Position numbers and translations under genes: made by a program
Part shown: piece after piece, positions 43,721 to 62,883 of the stretch
Layout of the letters: the number at the start of each line of letters is the position of its first letter
Position numbering within the stretch: the first letter of the stretch is position 1
NCBI RefSeq assembly: GCF_020623625.1
Contig: NC_060201.1
Span: 1,054,001-1,118,000, forward strand
Length of the DNA: 64,000 nt
Origin: Saccharomycodes ludwigii
Taxonomy: Eukaryota; Ascomycota; Saccharomycetes; Saccharomycodales; Saccharomycodaceae
Direction: 5' to 3'
Notes under the pieces: generated by a model
The model's input: only the letters and a program-made list of their open reading frames with translations
What the model was told of the DNA's origin: nothing
Database searches by the model: none

Positions 43721-46700
43721 CTAAATGAAAGCAGCCAATAATAAAGCTATTAATGTCCAAATAGTACCCCAGCCAGCTACAGATTTATTACTACCATTAC
43801 CAGTCTTAGAACTCGAGGTAGTGGTGGATGAAGTAGCAGTAGTTATTGAGCTAGATGCAGAAACAGTTCCACTAGCGGTAACACTTCCACTAGCATTAAC
43901 AGAAGAACCGCTTGAAGTAGCGTTCACACTAGAAGATCCAGCACTAGATGATGCTGCTTGGGTAGTAACAGTAAAAATATTACCACCGGTGTTATAACCA
44001 CTAGCAAAGCTAGACCAACTATTAGAGTAGTTTGGTGCTTTAATAGCAGAGGGAACAGATGATTTAATAACATCAATATTCTCCTCGCTATTACTATAAT
44101 CCGCCTCGGCCAAAGAAATCTCCAAGTTGTCTAAATCATAAACAACATAAGCAGTTTGCAAGAACGAATCACCTAAAATGATATAGTCATCATCAGAAGG
44201 AATAATACCAAATGCACATAATGTGTCACTATTGGTGGAAAAAATAAAATTATTCAACGGAGAGTTGATAAGGAAACCACCAAAATCAAATACTAAATTA
44301 TCGCTGTCTTCAACAGAGTTGCAATCCAACAAATAGACTCCCAATTCAGAACTGTAAGTAGCACCTAAACCATCAGCAACAATTTCGGCCAAAGCCTCAG
44401 GGAAGTACACCATGGTGGTACCAGAATCTAACAAGGCTGGCACTTTAGTAGTTGAATATGTAGAATTCTTTTTACCATTGGAGAAACCAATACCTTGCAA
44501 AGTAATATCAAACTCGATAGCTGAATTAATATTCTTACTCGAATAAATGTTAACGATTGGTACAGTATACAATTGTCCTGAATATTTAGAATGATCAACT
44601 GCACCAAACAAAATCGATCCTGTGGAAGCTGTATCATTATTCAAAAACAAAGAATAAGCTGTGACATCAATATCACCACTGGACTTCAAAAGTGCCGGCA
44701 AATTATTGTATGTATAAGATTTACCAACAGATTGAGCAGTATAGCCAGTATAAGTGACTTCCAGCCCCTGTAAACCAATACCCAAAACACCAACAGTGGA
44801 ATTAGTAGTATTTGCAACCGCAAAAGTTAAACCATCTAGACTAACACCATTGATACCTACAACATCTGTACCCCAATTCCCTAATGCAAAGGAATCATCA
44901 CCGTAAACAATGTAAAAATCCGTATCGTTAGATTTAAAAGTATCGGAATTATTAGGATTAAAAGTACCATATAATTTACAATATGTATAGTCACTAGAAC
45001 TAGAGGTGCTACTGACACTACCTACAGTCGTTGAGGCTTGGCCTAAAGTCTGGCTTGCTAAGAAAGTGGAAAATTCACTCCAAAAATCAGATACTGCATC
45101 TTTTTCCACGCCCTCGACGCTATTTGTGACAGACCTTTTGTCCGTATGTATACCTAGTCCATTTTCAATAAGATCAATAATATCCTCTCTCTTGAAAATA
45201 TCATCTAAAGCCTTTTCAGCAGTCTTGTCACCCTTGGTGATCTTGTCCTTGGCCTTGTCAAATCCTTCATCAATACCACCTTTAATATCATCTCCAAGAT
45301 CACTAAAGAAACTTCTCTTAAAAATATCATCTAAAGCTTCTTCAGCAGCTTTGTCACCCTTGGTAATCTTGTCCTTGGCCTTGTCAAATCCTTCATCAAT
45401 AGCATCACCAAGTGCCTTAAATAAATCTCTCTTGAAAATATCATCTAAAGCCTTTTCAGCAGTCTTGTCACCCTTGGTGATCTTGTCCTTGGCCTTGTCA
45501 AATCCTTCATCAATACCACCTTTAATATCATCTCCAAGATCACTAAAGAAACTTCTCTTAAAAATATCATCTAAAGCTTCTTCAGCAGCTTTGTCACCCT
45601 TGGTAATCTTGTCCTTGGCTTTGTCAAATCCTTCATCAATAGCATCACCAAGTGCCTTAAACAAATCTCTCTTGAAAATGTCATCTAAAGCCTTTTCAGC
45701 AGTCTTGTCACCCTTGGTGATCTTGTCCTTGGCCTTGTCAAATCCTTCATCAATACCACCTTTAATATCATCTCCAAGATCACTAAAGAAACTTCTCTTA
45801 AAAATGTCATCTAAAGCTTCTTCAGCAGCTTTGTCACCCTTGGTAATCTTGTCCTTGGCTTTGTCAAATCCTTCATCAATAGCATCACCAAGTGCCTTAA
45901 ACAAATCTCTCTTGAAAATATCATCTAAAGCCTTTTCAGCAGTCTTGTCACCCTTGGTGATCTTGTCCTTGGCCTTGTCAAATCCTTCATCAATACCACC
46001 TTTAATATCATCTCCAAGATCACTAAAGAAACTTCTCTTAAAAATATCATCTAAAGCTTCTTCAGCAGCTTTGTCACCCTTGGTAATCTTGTCCTTGGCT
46101 TTGTCAAATCCTTCATCAATAGCATCACCAAGTGCCTTAAACAAATCTCTCTTGAAAATGTCATCTAAAGCCTTTTCAGCAGTCTTGTCACCCTTGGTGA
46201 TCTTGTCCTTGGCCTTGTCAAATCCTTCATCAATACCACCTTTAATATCATCTCCAAGATCACTAAAGAAACTTCTCTTAAAAATATCATCTAAAGCTTC
46301 TTCAGCAGCTTTGTCACCCTTGGTAATCTTGTCCTTGGCTTTGTCAAATCCTTCATCAATAGCATCACCAAGTGCCTTAAACAAATCTCTCTTGAAAATG
46401 TCATCTAAAGCCTTTTCAGCAGTCTTGTCACCCTTGGTGATCTTGTCCTTGGCCTTGTCAAATCCTTCATCAATACCACCTTTAATATCATCTCCAAGAT
46501 CACTAAAGAAACTTCTCTTAAAAATATCATCTAAAGCTTCTTCAGCAGCTTTGTCACCCTTGGTAATCTTGTCCTTGGCTTTGTCAAATCCTTCATCAAT
46601 AGCATCACCAAGTGCCTTAAACAAATCTCTCTTGAAAATATCATCTAAAGCCTTTTCAGCAGTCTTGTCACCCTTGGTGATCTTGTCCTTGGCCTTATCA

Positions 46701-47734
46701 AATCCTTCGTCAATACCACCTTTAATATCATCTCCAAGATCACTAAAAAAACTTCTTTTATTTAAACTTTCATCAATTAAATTAATTAAATCTTCTTTGT
46801 TTTGCAACTGTAAACGAGTTAAACCTAAATCAACCAAATTAACGACATTTTTTCTTTTTTCTAATAATAGTTTATTATCCTTGTTGGTGTTATCTAATTC
46901 GTCAATATAGTGAACCAAATCAGCTCTGTTTTTAATTTCTTGAGATACAAAGTTCAATAAATTCTCCCTTTTTTCTAATTTTAAATCAATTTTATCTAGA
47001 CCTTGTTCAATAACATCAATTATATCTCTTTCAGAATATAAGGAGGGAGAGTCTTTTATTTTCTCATCAATAAAACTTAATAAGTCTTCCCTCTTGGTGG
47101 AATCCAAATAATTAATATCATCCTCAATTAAATCAATTAAAGTCTGTCTCTTGTGTAAATCGTCTAAGTTAAATGAAATTGTTTCAATCAACTCACTCCT
47201 TTTTTGTTTCATTTTGTAATCATCTTCAATTAAATCAATAATATCATTTCTATTGTCGTTAACAATAAATCTGAAATCATCATTATCTAATTTCCTAAAT
47301 TTCTCATTATCCATGCTACTAATAGCGGAAACGAGTTCATCAATGCTAACTTCTTTACTACTGTTGTTACTACTGCCCTCTTGACAGTATGGATTGTTGC
47401 TACCAACAACCCACAAGTCACTAGACCCAGTATCTAACAAAACAGTAACATTTTGGGAAGGGGTACCAATGGATAATTCGACTGAATAAAAACTTTGTTG
47501 ATTCTTAATTTCAAACAAAACTTCACTACTATCGTCTCTTTTACGTAAAAGACCATATGGTTTGTTATTGGCACTACTATCCTCATATGAGTCACCAATG
47601 AACTTATCAAAATCTAGTTTAACATATCTTTTGCCTGTTTTATTGATTGGAAAAGCATCAGCAATGCCATTATCAATTGAACCACCTAGTGATAAAATAG
47701 AAACCAGCAAAGACGCCTTACTACTAATCTTCAT
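43721..47734 (-). CDS. Yapsin-type GPI-anchored aspartyl protease with a giant Lys-Arg-delimited repeat insertion
   Basis: Yapsins are cell-surface aspartyl proteases that cut next to basic residues and shape the cell wall. This 1337-residue protein has a signal peptide, a propeptide ending at Lys-Arg (65-66), the first active site DTGSS (101-105), the second DSGTT (1103-1107), a Ser/Thr-rich stalk and a C-terminal GPI signal after GNGSNKS. Between the loop cysteines C117 and C919 lie 801 residues, where a normal yapsin has far fewer. They comprise degenerate KR-ended segments and then 13 highly regular modules (residues 328-849). Everything outside the loop looks like an ordinary functional yapsin. 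Orthology is to the YPS1/YPS3/MKC7 group; which member cannot be said. A peptide-precursor role for the insertion is inference. Confidence 0.9.
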   Translation of the reverse strand: MKISSKASLLVSILSLGGSIDNGIADAFPINKTGKRYVKLDFDKFIGDSYEDSSANNKPYGLLRKRDDSSEVLFEIKNQQSFYSVELSIGTPSQNVTVLLDTGSSDLWVVGSNNPYCQEGSSNNSSKEVSIDELVSAISSMDNEKFRKLDNDDFRFIVNDNRNDIIDLIEDDYKMKQKRSELIETISFNLDDLHKRQTLIDLIEDDINYLDSTKREDLLSFIDEKIKDSPSLYSERDIIDVIEQGLDKIDLKLEKRENLLNFVSQEIKNRADLVHYIDELDNTNKDNKLLLEKRKNVVNLVDLGLTRLQLQNKEDLINLIDESLNKRSFFSDLGDDIKGGIDEGFDKAKDKITKGDKTAEKALDDIFKRDLFKALGDAIDEGFDKAKDKITKGDKAAEEALDDIFKRSFFSDLGDDIKGGIDEGFDKAKDKITKGDKTAEKALDDIFKRDLFKALGDAIDEGFDKAKDKITKGDKAAEEALDDIFKRSFFSDLGDDIKGGIDEGFDKAKDKITKGDKTAEKALDDIFKRDLFKALGDAIDEGFDKAKDKITKGDKAAEEALDDIFKRSFFSDLGDDIKGGIDEGFDKAKDKITKGDKTAEKALDDIFKRDLFKALGDAIDEGFDKAKDKITKGDKAAEEALDDIFKRSFFSDLGDDIKGGIDEGFDKAKDKITKGDKTAEKALDDIFKRDLFKALGDAIDEGFDKAKDKITKGDKAAEEALDDIFKRSFFSDLGDDIKGGIDEGFDKAKDKITKGDKTAEKALDDIFKRDLFKALGDAIDEGFDKAKDKITKGDKAAEEALDDIFKRSFFSDLGDDIKGGIDEGFDKAKDKITKGDKTAEKALDDIFKREDIIDLIENGLGIHTDKRSVTNSVEGVEKDAVSDFWSEFSTFLASQTLGQASTTVGSVSSTSSSSDYTYCKLYGTFNPNNSDTFKSNDTDFYIVYGDDSFALGNWGTDVVGINGVSLDGLTFAVANTTNSTVGVLGIGLQGLEVTYTGYTAQSVGKSYTYNNLPALLKSSGDIDVTAYSLFLNNDTASTGSILFGAVDHSKYSGQLYTVPIVNIYSSKNINSAIEFDITLQGIGFSNGKKNSTYSTTKVPALLDSGTTMVYFPEALAEIVADGLGATYSSELGVYLLDCNSVEDSDNLVFDFGGFLINSPLNNFIFSTNSDTLCAFGIIPSDDDYIILGDSFLQTAYVVYDLDNLEISLAEADYSNSEENIDVIKSSVPSAIKAPNYSNSWSSFASGYNTGGNIFTVTTQAASSSAGSSSVNATSSGSSVNASGSVTASGTVSASSSITTATSSTTTSSSKTGNGSNKSVAGWGTIWTLIALLLAAFI
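45188..46753 (-). repeat. In-frame tandem array of 13 peptide modules (7 x 42 aa, 6 x 38 aa; 240-bp period)
   Basis: Module A (42 residues) starts SFFSDLGDDIKGGIDEGFDK; module B (38 residues) starts DLFKALGDAIDEGFDKAKDK. They alternate A-B-A... with seven A and six B copies, each ending DDIFKR. A+B is exactly 80 codons (240 bp). Translated A copies are identical to one another and B copies likewise. Nucleotide differences that I saw among copies (Leu TTA/TTG, Asp GAT/GAC, Lys AAG/AAA, Phe TTC/TTT) are all silent. Each module is predicted to be mostly charged amphipathic helix, and every boundary is a Lys-Arg site. Confidence 0.95.
46754..47362 (-). repeat. Degenerate KR-delimited modules preceding the array
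   Basis: Residues about 125-327 of the same protein contain diverged segments such as SELIETISFNLDDLHKR, QTLIDLIEDDINYLDSTKR, EDLLSFIDEKIKDSP and NLLNFVSQEIKN. They share a DLIxLIDExL-like core and most end in Lys-Arg. One further module, EDIIDLIENGLGIHTDKR, lies on the far side of the array. They look like older copies from which the uniform array may have grown. Confidence 0.7.
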
Positions 47735-48589
47735 TTATATATATATTCTATTTTTCCTGTATATTTTTTTCTTTTTCAAGTAGATTGCAGTAACAGGATA
47801 ATTTTGAAAAAGAGTTACCAAGCCTAGTAGAAAAAACAAAAAAGAAAAAAAGAAAAAGAAGGAGACTTTAGCAAAGCTAGAAGATACAAGAATATGTGTG
47901 CGAGAGAAGAAAGAAAGAAGACCAAATGAAGGATATTTTTCAAGGAAAATGAAGTGTAATGAAGGAAGATAGGATAAAATAAGACAGAATAAAATAAAAA
48001 TAACTTTTGAAATTGTTTTGCTGTTTACTTTAATTTTAACGTTAAAATTCCGCTTAAAATTTTCTCGCTTTTTTTCTTTTTCTTTTTCTCTTTTTTCACT
48101 TTTTTAACATTTGTTTCTAATTAAAAATAGGTTGATCTGTATGCGGGGTTTTCTGTGTTTTCCTAAAATTAAAAATAAAAAAAAAAAGAAAACTCCCCCG
48201 TGCACTTTATTAGATTTATAATATTCCTTCCCAAACGCCATGCACCCATACAAAAAATAAGAATTGGCACGTTTCTGCGGGAAAAAAGATAGAAAAAAAA
48301 GAAAAAAAAAAAAAAAGCCTCTGAAAAATAGGGACAATGTTGTCCTCATAGATATTAAATTCTAAAAATAGCTGCCTATCCGAATTCATTCGTCATTCCA
48401 GCGCATTACGGACCCTTTAAATCTAAATATCTTTGTTTCCATTAACAACAGTTGTAATCGTGAGGCAGTTTGTTTACATTTTCAAGATAATGAAAACATT
48501 GCACCATTTCAACTTTTTATATGGGGGGGGGGGGAGGGTTTTTTACCTATAATATAAATTCAAAAAATATATTAAAAATATTAACACGT
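47735..48589 (-). promoter_or_regulatory. Yapsin 1 upstream region
   Basis: The 855 bp include a purine-rich (GAAA) stretch at about 47830-47960, a perfect 18-bp palindrome AATTTTAACGTTAAAATT at 48032-48049, TCCGAA at 48379 and a G12 run at 48523-48534 close to the tRNA gene. No coding region is supported. Confidence 0.45.
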
Positions 48590-48613
48590 TGCGAATTCTG
48601 TGGATCGAACACA

Positions 48614-48655
<42 letters not shown>

Positions 48656-48662
48656 AATCCGC
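48590..48662 (-). tRNA. tRNA-Phe (GAA), intronless
   Basis: The 73-nt gene reads GCGGATTTAGCTCAG... with D-arm GCTC/GAGC, anticodon stem-loop TCAGA-CTGAAGA-TCTGA (anticodon GAA), T-arm CTGTG-TTCGATC-CACAG and acceptor end AATTCGC plus discriminator A. CCA is not encoded. A- and B-box sequences are intact. Short T-runs (T5 and T6) within 30 bp downstream on its strand can serve as pol III terminators. S. cerevisiae tRNA-Phe genes carry an intron 3' of the anticodon; this one has none. Confidence 0.97.
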
Positions 48663-49357
48663 AAACTATAAAAGTGATTAAAAATGACGGGGTAACCTCT
48701 AAAGTATGCAAATAAAATGAATAGGCTAATACTAGAGATTAACTACTAATTGTATTATCATACAAGTTATTATATGCAAAGGAGAAAGATAATCAAGGAT
48801 TAAGAATAAAAAGATACTACATAGGTTGCCTAGAGACATAGTTCTGCGATAAAACAGGTCGAAACCGCTTAAAGTAACATTCTACATCAAATAATGCTCA
48901 ACCATATTTATTCAACATTAATTTCTTTTCATTCTCTCTTTTAAATATGATAGTTAATTATATAAAATGTAAATTTATTTAGGGAATATAAATAAATCAA
49001 AATAAAACTGCCTTAGTCAAACCTGATTGCAAATCTTTTATCCTAGAAATGATTTCGTGCATATATTGTCAATTACATTAAGAGGTTGGTTGGATATGAT
49101 GCACTACGGATAATTTTTTAATTCTTAGATTTAGAGTGGGCTGTTTTGTGAAATAAATAGTAGTAATAATTAAAAATTAAAAGTAGCAAATTTTTATACA
49201 TAAAAGCAGGGGGGGGATAACTGAATAATAACTTAAAATTAAAAAAAAAAAAAGGGAAGAAGCAATTGAATAATAATAACTAAAAACAAATCAGAAGAAT
49301 TCATTTCTTTCATAAATTTTATATTATGTATATCCTTTCCATTTGGATGCAACCTAC
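48663..49357. other. tRNA-Phe to yapsin 2 intergenic region
   Basis: The 695 bp hold no long ORF. I looked for terminal-repeat (TG...CA) pairs common near yeast tRNA genes and for C/D-box pairs, and found none I would defend. A G7 run occurs near 49210. The final part is the 3' flank of yapsin 2. Confidence 0.35.
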
Positions 49358-51634
49358 TTACATTAAGCTAATAACCACACCAAGTAATAATGACATTAAT
49401 CCAAAGATAGAAGCATTGCCATAGTGAGTGTTTACAGCACCATTCTTACTGGTCGTACTGGTAGTGCTATTACTGCTATTGTTAGTGGCTGCCTTGATTA
49501 TATACGTGGCAAAAGAATGGTATTTCTTATGGCCTGTTTCATAAGACCTGCTGGTTTTACTGCCAAAAGCTCCAGTCGATTTGTAGGTCGAGGATGAATT
49601 AGTTGAAATAGAAACAGTTGGGAAATAATTATTTGTAGCATTGAAAATAGTAAAAATATTACCGCTAGTATTAAATCTTGTAACAAAATCAGTCCAAGTG
49701 TTTGAGTAACCTGGGGCCTTGATGGCACGTGGTATGGTGGTACCAATAACTTCAATATTGTTTCCAGTTGCATAACTATATGAAGCAGACAAAGTATTAG
49801 TAATATTATTAACACTGCTGCTGCTGCTGCTGCCGCTGCTACTATCTTTACTTTTATTGTCACTACTGCTACTGTTGCTACTAGCAGTTGTATGTTTTTT
49901 TTGAACCTCTGCATCTTTGTCCAAATTGGAAACATTGTCTTCACCTTCCACCATGGATAAAGATAAAGAAGAGGAAGAGGAGGAATTAGCTGGAGCCATG
50001 GCAATTTCTAAATTGTCCAAATCGTAAACAACATATGTAGATCTCAAAAATGAATCGCCCAAAATAGCATTGTTCAAATCACCACTACCAGAAATACCTA
50101 ACACACAAATATCTTCATCATCAGTAGTTAAAACAAAATCAACAAATGGAATATTAATGTGAAACCCACCAAAATCAAAAACCATATATTGATCATCAGA
50201 AACTTTATCGCAGCCAATAATATAAAGACCCAAGTCTTCCGTATAATAAGCGGAAAAAGAATCAGCTATGTATTCAAGTAAATAGTCTGGTAAATAAAGT
50301 AAAGTGGTACCAGAATCTAATAGAGCTGGAATCTTGGTGTTTGTAAAAGTATAGTTGTTGTCACCATCTACAAAACCTAACCCTTGTAATGTAACATCAA
50401 ATTCAGTGACATTCTTGATACCATATTTTTTGTAGATATTGATTAAAGGTAAAGTATATAATTGACCTAAATATTTCGAATGGTCAACAGCACCAAATAG
50501 TACAGTACCTGAAGAAGAATCAGAATCATTCAAGTATAAGGAATACGATGTTGAATTAATAATACCGTTCTGCTTTAGAACAACTGGTAGGTTTGGATAA
50601 GTGAAGTTTTTACTTTGATGTAGAACAGCAGATGCATCAAATTCGGTAGCTTCATCAGTCATCAAACCAATTCCTAGTACACCAGTACTAGAATCACTCA
50701 TATTGGCAACAGCAAAAGTTAAACCATCAACTTCAAGACCATCTACATATACTTTATCAGTAGCCCAATTACCCAACGCAGATGAATCGTCACCATAGAC
50801 AATATAGAATTCTGTATCATTCTTCTTAAAGGTCTTAGATTTGTTCGAGTCAAAAGTACCATATAACTCGCAATCGGTTGCAATGGTATTATCATATGTG
50901 GAAGTGTAATCATTATAAGTTTGGGTATAAAAACCATCAATAGCAGAAGTATAATAATTCCAGATATCATCTGAATAAGAATTAAAAGCATCGCTAATGG
51001 CAGAATCAATATCATCACCATCATCATCGCCACCACTATAAACATCTCTTTTAGGGAATTTTTTTTTTTCCAATTCGTCAGAAATAAATCTTTTACCAAC
51101 TAAGTTATCAAAGTCTTCAGTAGTAATGACAACTTCTTTTTCGTCCACATCTAATCCAATATCATTTTCATCCAAATATTCAACAAATTCTTCGTCATAT
51201 TCCTCTATGTCTGAACTATCCAAATCAAAATTGGCATCACAATATGGATTATCACTACCTACAACCCACAAATCGCTAGACCCTGTGTCTAATAAAACCG
51301 TAACATTTTGTATCTCCGGACTACCAATCCCAATCTCAGCTGCATAAAAGTTAATTAGATTAACTATTTCAAAGGAAACATCTGTGTCATTAGAATTAGT
51401 AGGAGTGTTTTTGTTGGTAGTTTTGGCAACATGTTTAATAACATATGGCTTAGAATGTTTGCTTTGGTCGACTGGAATAGCATTTGCGTAATCTACACCT
51501 ATTTTCTTTTGGAAATTCAAGGACGCATAGTTCCCATTTTTAGCACTAGAAACCAATGATGCATTGGTGAAAAGTGGAAGTGATAATAGTAGTAAAAAAA
51601 GCAAAAAAGAAATATTTTTTCGGTGTTGTGCCAT
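49358..51634 (-). CDS. Yapsin-type GPI-anchored aspartyl protease with medium loop
   Basis: The 758-residue protein has a hydrophobic signal peptide (8-25), propeptide, first active site DTGSS at 116-120 and second DSGTT at 440-444. The disulphide loop has 122 residues between its cysteines. It is acidic (EEYDEEFVEYLDEND) with basic cut sites GKR and PKR, so like S. cerevisiae yapsin 1 it could be processed to two chains. A long Ser/Asn-rich stalk and a C-terminal hydrophobic GPI signal follow (YGNASIFGLMSLLLGVVISLM). It is closely related to yapsin 1 upstream: VYGDDSxALGNW, TGVLGIG, ILGDSFL and the KAPGYSNTW segment are shared. Confidence 0.93.
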   Translation of the reverse strand: MAQHRKNISFLLFLLLLSLPLFTNASLVSSAKNGNYASLNFQKKIGVDYANAIPVDQSKHSKPYVIKHVAKTTNKNTPTNSNDTDVSFEIVNLINFYAAEIGIGSPEIQNVTVLLDTGSSDLWVVGSDNPYCDANFDLDSSDIEEYDEEFVEYLDENDIGLDVDEKEVVITTEDFDNLVGKRFISDELEKKKFPKRDVYSGGDDDGDDIDSAISDAFNSYSDDIWNYYTSAIDGFYTQTYNDYTSTYDNTIATDCELYGTFDSNKSKTFKKNDTEFYIVYGDDSSALGNWATDKVYVDGLEVDGLTFAVANMSDSSTGVLGIGLMTDEATEFDASAVLHQSKNFTYPNLPVVLKQNGIINSTSYSLYLNDSDSSSGTVLFGAVDHSKYLGQLYTLPLINIYKKYGIKNVTEFDVTLQGLGFVDGDNNYTFTNTKIPALLDSGTTLLYLPDYLLEYIADSFSAYYTEDLGLYIIGCDKVSDDQYMVFDFGGFHINIPFVDFVLTTDDEDICVLGISGSGDLNNAILGDSFLRSTYVVYDLDNLEIAMAPANSSSSSSLSLSMVEGEDNVSNLDKDAEVQKKHTTASSNSSSSDNKSKDSSSGSSSSSSVNNITNTLSASYSYATGNNIEVIGTTIPRAIKAPGYSNTWTDFVTRFNTSGNIFTIFNATNNYFPTVSISTNSSSTYKSTGAFGSKTSRSYETGHKKYHSFATYIIKAATNNSSNSTTSTTSKNGAVNTHYGNASIFGLMSLLLGVVISLM

Positions 51635-52422
51635 TTTTGTTTTTGTTATCTTATTATTTGTAGTATTATAGGCAAATGGTTGTTTTACCCTGTGATTAGT
51701 TAATTGGTTGAATAGACTGTAAAGCCTAAAAATGAAAGCTTAGAAATGAAAGAAAGAAAGAAAGGAAAATAGATTGTGTATCTAGTATAGTTAAAGTGAA
51801 CAGGATAGGTTTGATTTAAACCTTGAATTGATTGGAATGTGAATGAGTTTTATATTAGCAAAAGAAAGTAACAGATGGTTATGTTAGCTAGGTTATTCTT
51901 TTATTGCCACTATTAATATATATATATATATATATATATAAAACGCCACAATGAGGTTACTTTGATATTTATTTTTAGATTTATACAAATAATACGTACT
52001 ATATATATATATATATAAATGTTAAAAAAATGGCTTAATGGAGTAAGTTTATCCCGCTAAGAAAGAAAAAAAAAGCCAAATTTCTTAATTTAATTAAAAT
52101 GAGCAAATAGTCAAACAAATATTTTGTTTAGCTTCGTTTTTCTCTCTCTCTCTCTCTTTTTTTTTTAATTACTACGACAAACACGTGATTATCTCTATTA
52201 TAAATTTAAGCCTCTGTGGTAAATCTTTGCACGTCAGCAACAAAAAAAAAAAGGAGGAGAAAACGCCAAGATAAAACCCCGTGGAAAAAGTTGATGTAAC
52301 TTTGAAAAATATGACAGCCATAAACTAAACTATTGTTGTTGTTTCTACTCATCATTTAAATTGGCACGTGCAAGGCAAAATAAACAGTTAACTATCCCCT
52401 TATTCATTCATTCATTTACTAA
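51635..52422 (-). promoter_or_regulatory. Yapsin 2 upstream region
   Basis: The 788 bp contain (TA)n runs (about 51915-51941 and 52001-52017), a GAAA repeat at about 51745-51770, a CT-run near 52141, and two CACGTG cores (about 52181 and 52363). The latter are candidate Cbf1/bHLH sites. No coding region is seen. Confidence 0.4.
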
Positions 52423-54198
52423 TTATAATAGTAATAAGACTATCAATAATAATGGCATCAATATTACACTGCATTTATAAGAATAATAACAACCTCTCAT
52501 GCCTCTGTTGTTGTAAACATTATCAAATGCAACTTCCCAGGTATGACTACCAGTAACACTACCATCCATACTTAATGATTTCTCAAGTCCAATATTCTTA
52601 GCTACATTATAATAAACGACCGATTTAATGATTTTATTCCAACTAATTCTACTACCACTGTTTCTGTTATTCACTGTATTAACTTTCACATTACCTATAG
52701 ATATATGAAAATTTTTTAAATCAAATATAGTGTAAACTTTTTTCATAAAAAGTTTTCCTAAAATTATAGAATGTAATTTTTCATTGGGGAAAACACCAAT
52801 TATATATTCAATTTGAGTAACCCTACTAATGCTAGTATTAGCAATGGTGGTGGTACTGGTGAGCGGATCTGCGACCAATATAGGTATATTTTGTAATAGT
52901 AAATCGCTTAATTTTATAGTTATATTATGATATGAAGAAAATTCAATTTTGAGTTCCATTTGTTCTAATTTGTTATAATCTTTTTCGGTATTATTAATTC
53001 TCAAATAGCAATAGGGCCCATTTTTAGAAGTACTTCCAGTAAACTCACCCGTGTTACTACTGGTACCATCGCTGATATTAGAATACCGTATTGCATCATC
53101 ACCAAATTCTCTTTTAACCAAGTGTACCAAACTATCAAATGCCACTTGTGGGAAATGGTTAAATGTAGAACCGGTATCTAAAATGCATCCTATAAATTTT
53201 TTATTTCCTTTATTACTATCTTTTGTATCGCCAATACTACTGATACTATTGTTGCCTAGATATATATTGGTTAATGGGATTTCTAACTTAAAAGGTGGTA
53301 AACTAGGATTTTCTGAATTTATCATTTTAAATGTTTTCAATGTACCAATTTCATATTTGGAATTGTCAACTGCACCAAATAATATTTGTGAACTTTCTAC
53401 ACCATCACCATCATAATCATAATCATCATTAACTAGATATATTGAATATAATGGCCATTCAATTAACCCCTTATTATATAGTCTCATTGGTAAATTTTCC
53501 GTTTGATATGTTATTTGAAATTTTTTATTGTCTGTTTTCGAGTGCCTGGGTATTCCTATTCCTAGTACACCTACAGTGGAATTAGAATCAAACCCGACCC
53601 CGAACGGTAAATCTAATATGTAATCATCGCTATTTCCACCTTGAAGCCAAAATTTATCAATCCCCCATATCCCTTCCACTCTAGTATCATCTAAATATTC
53701 GACCAGGTATTTAGAATTGGGTATAGTAATAAAACTTTTTGATTTATTTACATCGAATGTACCATATTTATTACAATTTATTTTATTCGTGCCGATTTCA
53801 ACGGTTGAAGTAATTTCTTTGCAATACTTATTATTATGACTCATAATCCATAAGTCACTTGAGCCGGTATCTAGCAAAACGGTTACTTTTTGACATTGTG
53901 GCTGGCCAATACATAAATCTATCGAATAAAAACTTTCCTGGGATTCTATAAGTTTGAGCACATAATTTGATGTAGTATTATAATAATGCCTTTTATTGGC
54001 ATCTGCATGGGTGGTGCTACCCCCGGAATTCCCATTTATCTGATCCATATCGAATTGTATAAACTTCACAGTACTGTTATACCCTGTGTCTTCATTTCTA
54101 CTGCCAAAATTCATGAGTTTGATATTAAGCACGCTATATAGGACGGTTGTGCTTATTATAATAGCCAATAATATTAATTGTATTTTTTTTGAATTCAT
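52423..54198 (-). CDS. Divergent yapsin-like aspartyl protease with short loop
   Basis: The 591-residue protein has an N-terminal hydrophobic segment (6-23) that may be a signal peptide or anchor, DTGSS at 110-114 and DTGST at 341-345, so both catalytic aspartates are present. Only 15 residues separate the loop cysteines, and no basic cut site lies there. It lacks the Ser/Thr-rich stalk of its two neighbours. It ends CYYSYKCSVILMPLLLIVLLLL, a hydrophobic tail that could direct GPI attachment or act as a membrane span. The sequence is clearly more diverged than the other two. It may be the oldest duplicate or one with a separate role. Confidence 0.85.
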   Translation of the reverse strand: MNSKKIQLILLAIIISTTVLYSVLNIKLMNFGSRNEDTGYNSTVKFIQFDMDQINGNSGGSTTHADANKRHYYNTTSNYVLKLIESQESFYSIDLCIGQPQCQKVTVLLDTGSSDLWIMSHNNKYCKEITSTVEIGTNKINCNKYGTFDVNKSKSFITIPNSKYLVEYLDDTRVEGIWGIDKFWLQGGNSDDYILDLPFGVGFDSNSTVGVLGIGIPRHSKTDNKKFQITYQTENLPMRLYNKGLIEWPLYSIYLVNDDYDYDGDGVESSQILFGAVDNSKYEIGTLKTFKMINSENPSLPPFKLEIPLTNIYLGNNSISSIGDTKDSNKGNKKFIGCILDTGSTFNHFPQVAFDSLVHLVKREFGDDAIRYSNISDGTSSNTGEFTGSTSKNGPYCYLRINNTEKDYNKLEQMELKIEFSSYHNITIKLSDLLLQNIPILVADPLTSTTTIANTSISRVTQIEYIIGVFPNEKLHSIILGKLFMKKVYTIFDLKNFHISIGNVKVNTVNNRNSGSRISWNKIIKSVVYYNVAKNIGLEKSLSMDGSVTGSHTWEVAFDNVYNNRGMRGCYYSYKCSVILMPLLLIVLLLL

Positions 54199-61134: not shown

Positions 61135-62883
61135 ATGAATAACTCTATACATAGAAGAAGAGTGATGCAAATATTGTTTTTATGGCGTTCAATAAAACAT
61201 TTGTATCAAAATGAAAAAGAACTTTTAAGACTAACAGAGGTTTTTAAAAAATTATCAAAGATCAAGGAACTAAATAAATTAAACAAGCATTCTACAGTCA
61301 TAAATACTATACATTTCCTAGAGAGTATTTTGTGGTTTTCTATTGTTATTGATAAATATTTGGATGATTACGTAAAAGATATGAATAAAGAAAGCTTTCC
61401 TCTTCTTAGTTATCTATTACAAAACCCAGAAAATGTTCTATCCAATTCTGCCTCTATTCCAGCATATGTTTATCAGGAAAATTTTCATTATTTACCTCAA
61501 ACCATTAATTGGCTAAATGATTTATTAGAGAAATATTTGGTTATTAATGGTTACGAACCTCTGATTTTCTACACCTATAAATTTATAGCAATTTATATTT
61601 TAAAAATAACTGATAATCAAAGCAATAAAATTATTGCTAGAATAGCACAAATTAGTTCGTCGTCTGTTAAAAACTATTTTAAACTTATGGTGGACTTTTT
61701 TCAATACTGCAAGTGCTCCACAGAGTACAACAATTTGAATATAAACTATAATATAATCGCTGATTTTGATGAATTTAAACAACAATCTATTCTTAATAAT
61801 CGAATTTTCAAACTGATTATAGCGTCATGTACAGATGGAACTTTAATAAATATTAGTAGAAAAGGTATTAAAGAATCGGAATATCAATATTTCTATTCAT
61901 ACAAAAAACAGCTGCAAATAACAGGTTTTTATTTAACCAATTATAATCTTCAGTTTGTTGCATACATACTAGGATTCCCAGGCAATTGTAATGATTTTAC
62001 ATTGCAACTATATGCCCAATTTTGTTATCCAAATTGTCTACCCAAGAAAGGGTTTGTTTTAGGGGATGCTGGTTTCAAATTGGATAGTTTTATTTTAACG
62101 CCATATCGTGGAGTGAGATATCATTTAAGTGATGGTATAAATTTTGACAATATAAAAGATCGCAAGGAGGCTTACAACTATTATCATTCATCAAATAGAA
62201 TCTCCATCGAAAGAACTTTTGGTCTTCTTAAAAAAAGAAGTAAAATTTTAAGTCAGACAAATCCTAACTTTGATCTCAAATTTTACACAAAAATTTTAGA
62301 TTCCTGTCTTATAATTCAAAATATAGACAGGCACTTTAAACTTTTAGAAGCCACAAATAAAAATAGTCAAAATAATAGTATAGATGATAGAGTTGATACT
62401 GAAAATGGACAAGAAGCTGAAAACACTAACGACATTCCATCGCATTCTCATTTGGAAATCAATCAAATAGGGAACACACATGGAGGCTGTTTTGATAATA
62501 GCGAAATATTTGAAGCCAAATCTAACATTTTTTTTGTTTATAATGAGCTAAATAACAGAATTATTGCTGGATTAAACTCTCTCTTAGATTATAATAATGT
62601 TGAAATACAGCAAAAATTAATCAATTCTTATTTTGACAAGGACCTATTATTTGATAAATTTAAAGGTATCAGAAAATTGTCAGCAGAAATTGGAAATTAT
62701 GTTAGATTTTCTATATCTAAAATTTTTGAATATAATATATTAAAAAATGACCCTGAAAAAGAATGGCTATTTTTAGAGGACGATTATAATTTGATTAATT
62801 TTAATAAAGAAGAGATTATTCAAAGATTAGATTCTGAAATAGAAAATTTGAAAAATGATGTTAGACAAATTCTAGGGGACTAG
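61135..62883 (+). CDS. PIF/Harbinger-type DDE transposase
   Basis: The 582-residue protein has an N-terminal helical region, a helix-turn-helix-like segment around IARIAQISSSSVKNYFKLMV, and the nuclease core with D234 (CTDGTLI), D311 (VLGDAGF) and E359 (RISIERTFG). Between them lies the family hallmark YKKQLQITGFY...YILGFPGNCNDFTL; after the glutamate comes LLKKRSKIL. The reading frame is unbroken, and none of the three acidic residues is lost, so the element may be recent or the gene domesticated. A polar tail from about residue 400 is element-specific. Transposase genes of this class in yeasts are uncommon. The start at 61135 is the first ATG of the frame. Confidence 0.88.
   Translation: MNNSIHRRRVMQILFLWRSIKHLYQNEKELLRLTEVFKKLSKIKELNKLNKHSTVINTIHFLESILWFSIVIDKYLDDYVKDMNKESFPLLSYLLQNPENVLSNSASIPAYVYQENFHYLPQTINWLNDLLEKYLVINGYEPLIFYTYKFIAIYILKITDNQSNKIIARIAQISSSSVKNYFKLMVDFFQYCKCSTEYNNLNINYNIIADFDEFKQQSILNNRIFKLIIASCTDGTLINISRKGIKESEYQYFYSYKKQLQITGFYLTNYNLQFVAYILGFPGNCNDFTLQLYAQFCYPNCLPKKGFVLGDAGFKLDSFILTPYRGVRYHLSDGINFDNIKDRKEAYNYYHSSNRISIERTFGLLKKRSKILSQTNPNFDLKFYTKILDSCLIIQNIDRHFKLLEATNKNSQNNSIDDRVDTENGQEAENTNDIPSHSHLEINQIGNTHGGCFDNSEIFEAKSNIFFVYNELNNRIIAGLNSLLDYNNVEIQQKLINSYFDKDLLFDKFKGIRKLSAEIGNYVRFSISKIFEYNILKNDPEKEWLFLEDDYNLINFNKEEIIQRLDSEIENLKNDVRQILGD

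Follow-up and report, generated by a model that had tools for sequence, protein, structure and literature searches.

A Yps1-type yapsin of Saccharomycodes ludwigii with a Lys-Arg-delimited repeat array in an 801-residue loop

A 64,000-nucleotide stretch of the Saccharomycodes ludwigii genome (NCBI RefSeq assembly GCF_020623625.1, contig NC_060201.1, positions 1,054,001 to 1,118,000 of the forward strand), hereafter the window, encodes a yapsin-type aspartyl protease, termed YPSa, in which a loop of the N lobe spans 801 residues and is filled with basic-ended units. YPSa is read here as a Yps1-type yapsin whose loop has grown to this length and is probably cut at many Lys-Arg (KR) sites, which would free peptides of 36-42 residues; a rough probability of 0.6 is assigned to this reading. 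The window contains no N letters and has a GC content of 31%.

Anatomy of YPSa

YPSa is a minus-strand open reading frame (ORF) of 1337 residues in the standard code. The Pfam aspartyl protease family PF00026 matches the protein with an E value of 1e-68, both catalytic motifs (DTGSS101 and DSGTT1103) are intact, and the closest solved structure to the catalytic domain is 3fv3, a secreted yeast aspartic protease (E 5.4e-53). The 801-residue loop lies between the N-lobe cysteines C117 and C919 and holds 20 KR sites. The protein thus has two features of a yapsin: an aspartyl protease domain with two catalytic motifs and an insertion loop with basic sites between N-lobe cysteines. Read by eye, the C terminus consists of a Ser/Thr-rich stalk followed by a hydrophobic end of the glycosylphosphatidylinositol (GPI) type. 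An earlier note on this DNA had described a GPI-anchored yapsin with a loop closed by these two cysteines, and both cysteines and the protease domain were found as described, with a C-terminal end that looks by eye to be of the GPI type. The bare polypeptide from residue 67 to 1337 has a computed mass of ~139 kDa. The parts of the gene, all on the minus strand, are as follows.

43721..47734, minus strand: YPSa, yapsin-type aspartyl protease with giant loop, 1337 residues (ORF; PF00026 in two stretches)
47537..47734, minus strand: residues 1-66, signal-peptide-like N terminus (judged by eye) and propeptide to RKR66
47384..47536, minus strand: residues 67-117, N lobe with DTGSS101, ending at C117 (from sequence)
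47249..47383, minus strand: residues 118-162, start of the loop, outside the set of units (from sequence)
46754..47248, minus strand: residues 163-327, the nine upstream older units, diverged in sequence and each 14-24 residues long, eight Arg-ended (six of them KR) and one Lys-ended
45188..46753, minus strand: residues 328-849, array of 13 modules in the order A-B-A-B-...-A, 7 x 42 and 6 x 38 residues, all KR-ended
45134..45187, minus strand: residues 850-867, last of the ten older units, lying downstream of the array and closed by KR867
44981..45133, minus strand: residues 868-918, final stretch of the loop before C919 (Ser+Thr make up 32% of residues 850-918)
44090..44980, minus strand: residues 919-1215, remaining catalytic domain with DSGTT1103
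43724..44089, minus strand: residues 1216-1337, Ser/Thr-rich stalk (by composition) and hydrophobic C terminus with GPI-type signal (by eye)

The 13-module array

All 13 modules of alternating 42 and 38 residues were located at 45188-46753 (1566 bp), each ending in KR, which agrees to the base with the array reported in the earlier note. Tandem Repeats Finder places the repeat at 45186-46760 with a period of 240, 6.6 copies and 99% matches; the repeat unit is thus an A-B pair of 240 bp (80 codons) present in 6.5 copies, a copy number taken from one assembly. The seven A modules are identical to one another in protein sequence, as are the six B modules, and comparison of the six A-B pairs at the DNA level shows 0-5 differences per 240 bases, with three of the six mutually identical. 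The modules start with SFFSDLGDD or DLFKALGDA and end in DDIFKR, and the computed average masses are 4351.7 Da for A and 3914.3 Da for B without KR, and 4636.1 and 4198.6 Da, respectively, with it. A and B have their last 29 residues in common save for two substitutions and differ in their starts. With KR left out, the modules are acidic (net charge -4 for A and -5 for B), and both are amphipathic when treated as helices (mean hydrophobic moment against shuffles, P 0.0004 and 0.001). Ser and Thr make up 6.5% of the array. Third-position GC stands at 33% for the array, against 26% for the remainder of YPSa and 28% for 18 other ORFs of the window. Two AlphaFold models, with predicted local distance difference test (pLDDT) scores of 38.6 and 46.2, render the loop mostly as helix at a confidence too low to prove a fold.

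The array occupies a single place in the genome. Searches of the genome covered 8 contigs (12.5 Mb), and the A-B unit gave seven matches at E<=10 with the best candidates scored, all seven within the YPSa ORF; the older part of the loop matched only itself. A second genomic source of the module was rejected on these grounds. A foreign origin was likewise rejected: a search of a collection of bacterial and archaeal genomes returned 591 pattern matches, of which none was confirmed as a relative, and the collection holds no yeasts, so that the search says nothing about A-B modules in other yeasts. The A-B pair reached the cut-off of no Pfam family and had no match below E 0.1 in the PDB, and three pieces of the loop gave only sub-cut-off Pfam matches up to E 10, the best being DUF5610 (E 0.0025, 18.7 of the 26.4 bits required). 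A known peptide family, or a self-inhibitory helix like that of the yeast proteinase A inhibitor, was set aside on the basis of these comparisons. When the whole of YPSa was compared with Pfam, L27_1 (35.4 bits, cut-off 29.7) and CcmF_C (31.1 bits, cut-off 28.7) exceeded their cut-offs with no single stretch passing alone, and both are taken as sums of weak matches across the repeated copies.

A plus-strand ORF of 634 residues (45006-46910) runs antisense to the array. It is taken as a shadow of the repeat, probably open only because a period divisible by three carries one open frame from copy to copy.

Older units around the array

Beyond what the earlier note had described, the loop contains seven further KR sites outside the array, together with ten older, diverged units that flank it, nine upstream and one downstream, each 14-24 residues long as finally drawn. 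Basic sites are in clear excess here: shuffling of the loop outside the array gives 1.02 KR on average, and only 2 of 100000 shuffles reach the seven observed.

The basic sites are also in phase with a hydrophobic pattern. The older part of the loop was cut after each Arg, which gives ten Arg-preceded segments of at least 12 residues, nine upstream of the array and one downstream; three upstream pieces were excluded before the count, 118-147 for lack of a preceding Arg, and 148-155 and 156-162 for being shorter than 12 residues. Hydrophobic residues occupy segment positions 3, 4, 6 and 7 in 34 of 40 instances, compared with a mean of 14.5 and with none of 20000 permutations reaching 34, a permutation value that is optimistic since the pattern was picked after the sequence had been viewed. 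The offset control is fairer: in the nine upstream segments, 30 of 36 positions are hydrophobic in phase, and at most 20 of 36 when the frame is shifted by -6 to +6. The final ten units differ slightly from this cut, as one ends at Lys313.

In an eight-codon alignment made by eye, with unit 313 one residue out of register, the ten units have on average 51% of bases and 25% of residues in common, a degree of likeness that indicates that they are old. Four different codon pairs (AAAAGG, AAGAGA, AAGAGG and AAAAGA) encode their KR sites, which speaks for constraint.

Cleavage sites in the loop

The loop contains 26 Arg and 20 KR, compared with no Arg and no KR in 461 residues counted outside it; a wider count outside the loop (residues 67-117 and 919-1337) likewise finds none of either. 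Sites were scored for Kex2 with the published P4 x P3 matrix (Table 1 of PMC2515848), in which the random mean is 0.19. The 13 IFKR sites of the array score 0.28, equal to both YKKR sites in the alpha-factor gene of this yeast, whose third site (TRKR) scores 0.10, and the proposal that the array sites are of the Kex2 type is borne out to this extent. Kex2 is described in PMC2515848 as favouring acidic residues at P1', P2' and P4', and some such residues occur at the sites before B modules and at site 849. No N-glycosylation sequon begins between residues 125 and 927 of YPSa.

A Kex2-type P domain is present in an 872-residue open frame of the same genome. The alpha-factor-like precursor lies at L020 1156-1614 (152 residues) and contains three near-identical peptides ending in WGEPMY, each preceded by KR; its alpha-factor Pfam matches are under cut-off, and the three repeats are plain in the reading frame.

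Silent variation among the modules

Variation among the 13 array copies is confined to seven sites, and all seven differences are synonymous third-position transitions. The fraction of transitions in the unit expected to be silent is 0.346, so that seven of seven has a p of 0.0006 if the changes are independent. Homogenisation by exchange should not favour silent changes over others, and the protein sequence of the modules is therefore probably constrained, apparently by purifying selection as judged from these substitutions. Such constraint would tilt the balance modestly towards modules that matter, and would fit a loop that covers the active site and working peptides alike.

Comparison with known systems

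In Saccharomyces cerevisiae Yps1 (ScYps1), as described in PMC4353680 (Dube et al. 2015), the N-entrance loop (C117-C186) comprises 68 residues and is missing from pepsin, and in the native GPI-anchored enzyme it is cut autocatalytically at basic sites to give two subunits with one catalytic Asp each. That account determines KR133 as a cut site in a truncated soluble form and reports full removal of the propeptide after KR67; it also reports that replacement of the loop strongly raises shedding activity and that loop cutting accompanies shedding. D101 and C117 of YPSa carry the same numbers as in ScYps1, and the YPSa loop likewise begins after C117 and has basic sites within it, so the array sits in the Yps1 N-entrance loop. 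The two differ in that the YPSa loop has 801 residues, 20 KR and repeats, as against 68 residues, and in that cutting is demonstrated for ScYps1, whereas the YPSa loop is known by sequence. Cutting of the YPSa loop at several KR sites is likely, given the behaviour of the family and the sites themselves. Such cuts would extend the known maturation of Yps1, and cutting alone is therefore no sign of a peptide precursor.

Kex2-processed repeat proteins (KEPs), of which alpha-factor is an example, are defined in PMC6339444 (Le Marquer et al. 2019) by at least four fragments after cutting at KR or RR, at least three of them alike, by repeats that make up at least 15% of the protein, by a signal peptide and by not being discarded by TMHMM. 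In YPSa, cutting at these sites gives 22 fragments and a C-terminal piece, among them seven A and six B that are identical within their type; A alone accounts for 22% of the protein and A and B together for 39%. The precursor-like layout noticed earlier is thus shared with KEPs, although the hydrophobic C-terminal end of YPSa could bring rejection at the TMHMM step. Unlike KEPs, YPSa carries its repeats within the loop of a yapsin-type protease and alternates two motifs, where two motif types are given for 77 of 1193 KEPs. In contrast to KEPs such as alpha-factor, A and B do not start with a Ste13-type XA or XP after KR.

The earlier note named no description of such an arrangement inside an enzyme; a precedent, though one lacking repeats, does exist. 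Some plant aspartic proteases carry an insert of ~100 residues that is cut out after translation and is antimicrobial, as reported for the plant-specific insert (PSI) of Droserasin 1 (PMC7407137, PMC4154668). The PSI resembles the YPSa loop in being an insert in an aspartic protease, and it sets a precedent for an insert of this enzyme class that, once excised, is active in its own right. However, the PSI is saposin-like, lies in the C-terminal lobe and has no repeats, whereas the repeat loop of YPSa lies in the N lobe, after the first catalytic motif, and no saposin family is among the Pfam matches of the three loop pieces up to E 10. Among the titles and beginnings of abstracts listed from open-licence papers, none describes repeats in yapsin loops or peptide repeats in enzymes. 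In type, YPSa combines a KEP-like array with the Yps1-type loop that houses it: the parts are known, and no description of their combination came up among the entries listed.

Maturation and possible fate of the loop

The favoured reading can be set out as a sequence of steps. The N-entrance loop would have been enlarged to 801 residues, against the 68 of ScYps1, and filled with basic-ended units; ten of these would have diverged, and between them recent amplification would have brought the 80-codon A-B pair to 6.5 copies. As the enzyme matures, many of the 20 KR sites would be cut, whether in the Golgi by Kex2, at the surface by the yapsin itself, or by both, and the two halves of the enzyme would remain linked through C117-C919. 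The loop would then depart as peptides of 36-42 residues that are acidic and amphipathic, each enzyme yielding at most seven A and six B, along with shorter pieces from the older units. The A and B peptides may be released and may have a function, and A and B may descend from the older units.

The main rival holds that the loop is regulatory only, its length and number of cut sites setting how long the active site is shielded, as proposed for Yps1, with the fragments as waste. This is a strong contender, with somewhat less than an even chance, and its odds overlap with those of the favoured reading because both include cutting. The effects of loop replacement and loop cutting on shedding in ScYps1 (PMC4353680) support it, as does the variation in this genome of the stretch between the first two cysteines after the active-site motif, from 801 residues down to 1 in seven of the eight aspartyl protease genes. 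By itself it leaves two things unexplained, namely why change is silent across the module sequence and not just at KR, and why A and B are amphipathic. A different account is that slippage inflated a tolerated, cleavable loop as a neutral minisatellite, whose repeat number and sequence are irrelevant. The near-identical 240-bp units with their patchwork of single-nucleotide polymorphisms (SNPs) are of the kind that recent unequal exchange or slippage would leave, and the repeat is found in one genomic place, but the wholly silent variation, the four codon pairs of the older KR sites and the phase-locked pattern of the older units make this account improbable. An artefact of assembly, with fewer or more repeats in reality, is far less probable still: the A-B pairs are similar enough, in one assembly, for copies to have been miscounted, yet some carry distinguishing SNPs (although three of the six pairs are identical), the array lies within one open frame, and the published Sd. 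ludwigii NBRC 1722 assembly is given in PMC8567612 as built from PacBio long reads, a point that counts if the strain is the same.

Several observations weigh against the favoured reading. The silent changes are few, five of them fall in just two modules (three in the first A, two in the last B), and they may reflect as few as four events (p 0.014). Yapsins tend to be poor in Arg, which partly accounts for its scarcity outside the loop, the counts being 4/546, 5/465, 5/427 and 4/678 in four paralogues and 11/492 in YPSc, the third yapsin-like gene of the same tandem. Six of the seven other loop KR sites, which include the site before the first module, score 0.05-0.13 with the Kex2 matrix and one scores 0.51, the sites before A modules have no acidic residues at P1', P2' or P4', and structural constraints are reported to block Kex2 even at good sites (PMC2515848). 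The older region as a whole is not amphipathic (hydrophobic moment P 0.31 and 0.34), and its pattern is the one chosen after viewing. At their starts, A and B agree with that pattern in only two of four positions each, so that descent of the array from the older units cannot be shown and the basic end is their one sure common trait. The position of the loop cannot be read from the AlphaFold models, whose quality is too low. The peptide-precursor interpretation of the earlier note is thus upheld in part, by the KR layout, the site scores and the apparent purifying selection, and loses the argument from cutting as such, since the loop of Yps1 is known to be cut at basic residues.

A bolder version of the favoured reading is that YPSa is a self-processing precursor: a protease of the convertase type with peptide cargo stored in its own activation loop. 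Enzyme opening and the sudden release of as many as ~twenty peptides (the 13 A and B together with older units) would then be one event at the surface, linking a wall protease to a secreted signal or to a membrane- or wall-active peptide; this version is unlikely. According to PMC4353680, the role of the Yps1 loop and of its cutting had been unclear, and the trigger of the cut is left open in that account. A natural loop that is >10 times longer, with 23 basic-ended units, offers a direct test of whether the fragments are waste, timer or product. If the peptides are functional, enzyme inserts would be a place to seek peptide precursors, and pipelines that discard membrane-type proteins could miss them.

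Other aspartyl proteases and neighbouring features

YPSa is the first of three same-strand, tandem yapsin-type genes (43721-54198), whose loops of 801, 122 and 15 residues form a natural series of loop lengths. The other two are as follows.

49358..51634, minus strand: YPSb, sister yapsin, 758 residues, loop of 122 residues with 2 KR, 48% identical to YPSa over the aligned piece
52423..54198, minus strand: YPSc, third yapsin-like gene of the tandem, 591 residues, loop of 15 residues without KR

Two segments of the YPSb loop (148 and 222) match the older-unit pattern fully, and neither is preceded by a basic residue. Pfam aspartyl protease matches occur at 10 places in 8 genes of the genome. 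The first two Cys after the active-site motif are separated by 801, 122, 15, 12, 5, 4 and 1 residues in seven of these genes, the counted Cys of the last possibly not being the loop pair, and by 3 residues, counted by eye, in the eighth, on contig C3.

Three further aspartyl-protease-like sequences on contigs C1 and C6 (L003 1075-2661, L006 1345-2796 and L008 673-2856) have, by eye, no usual D[T/S]G at either catalytic place, where they read FDTEAADTW/FDNTETT, LDLLTADIF/LDTTSDF and VDLGQPYVW/IDSRYTF, respectively. With the motif absent from both places, they look like inactive yapsin paralogues. Elsewhere in the window, a 582-residue open frame (61135-62883) contains a DDE_Tnp_4 transposase domain, presumably of the Harbinger type, and has three genome matches of equal score, at C1:1750141, C1:2516317 and C4:148702.

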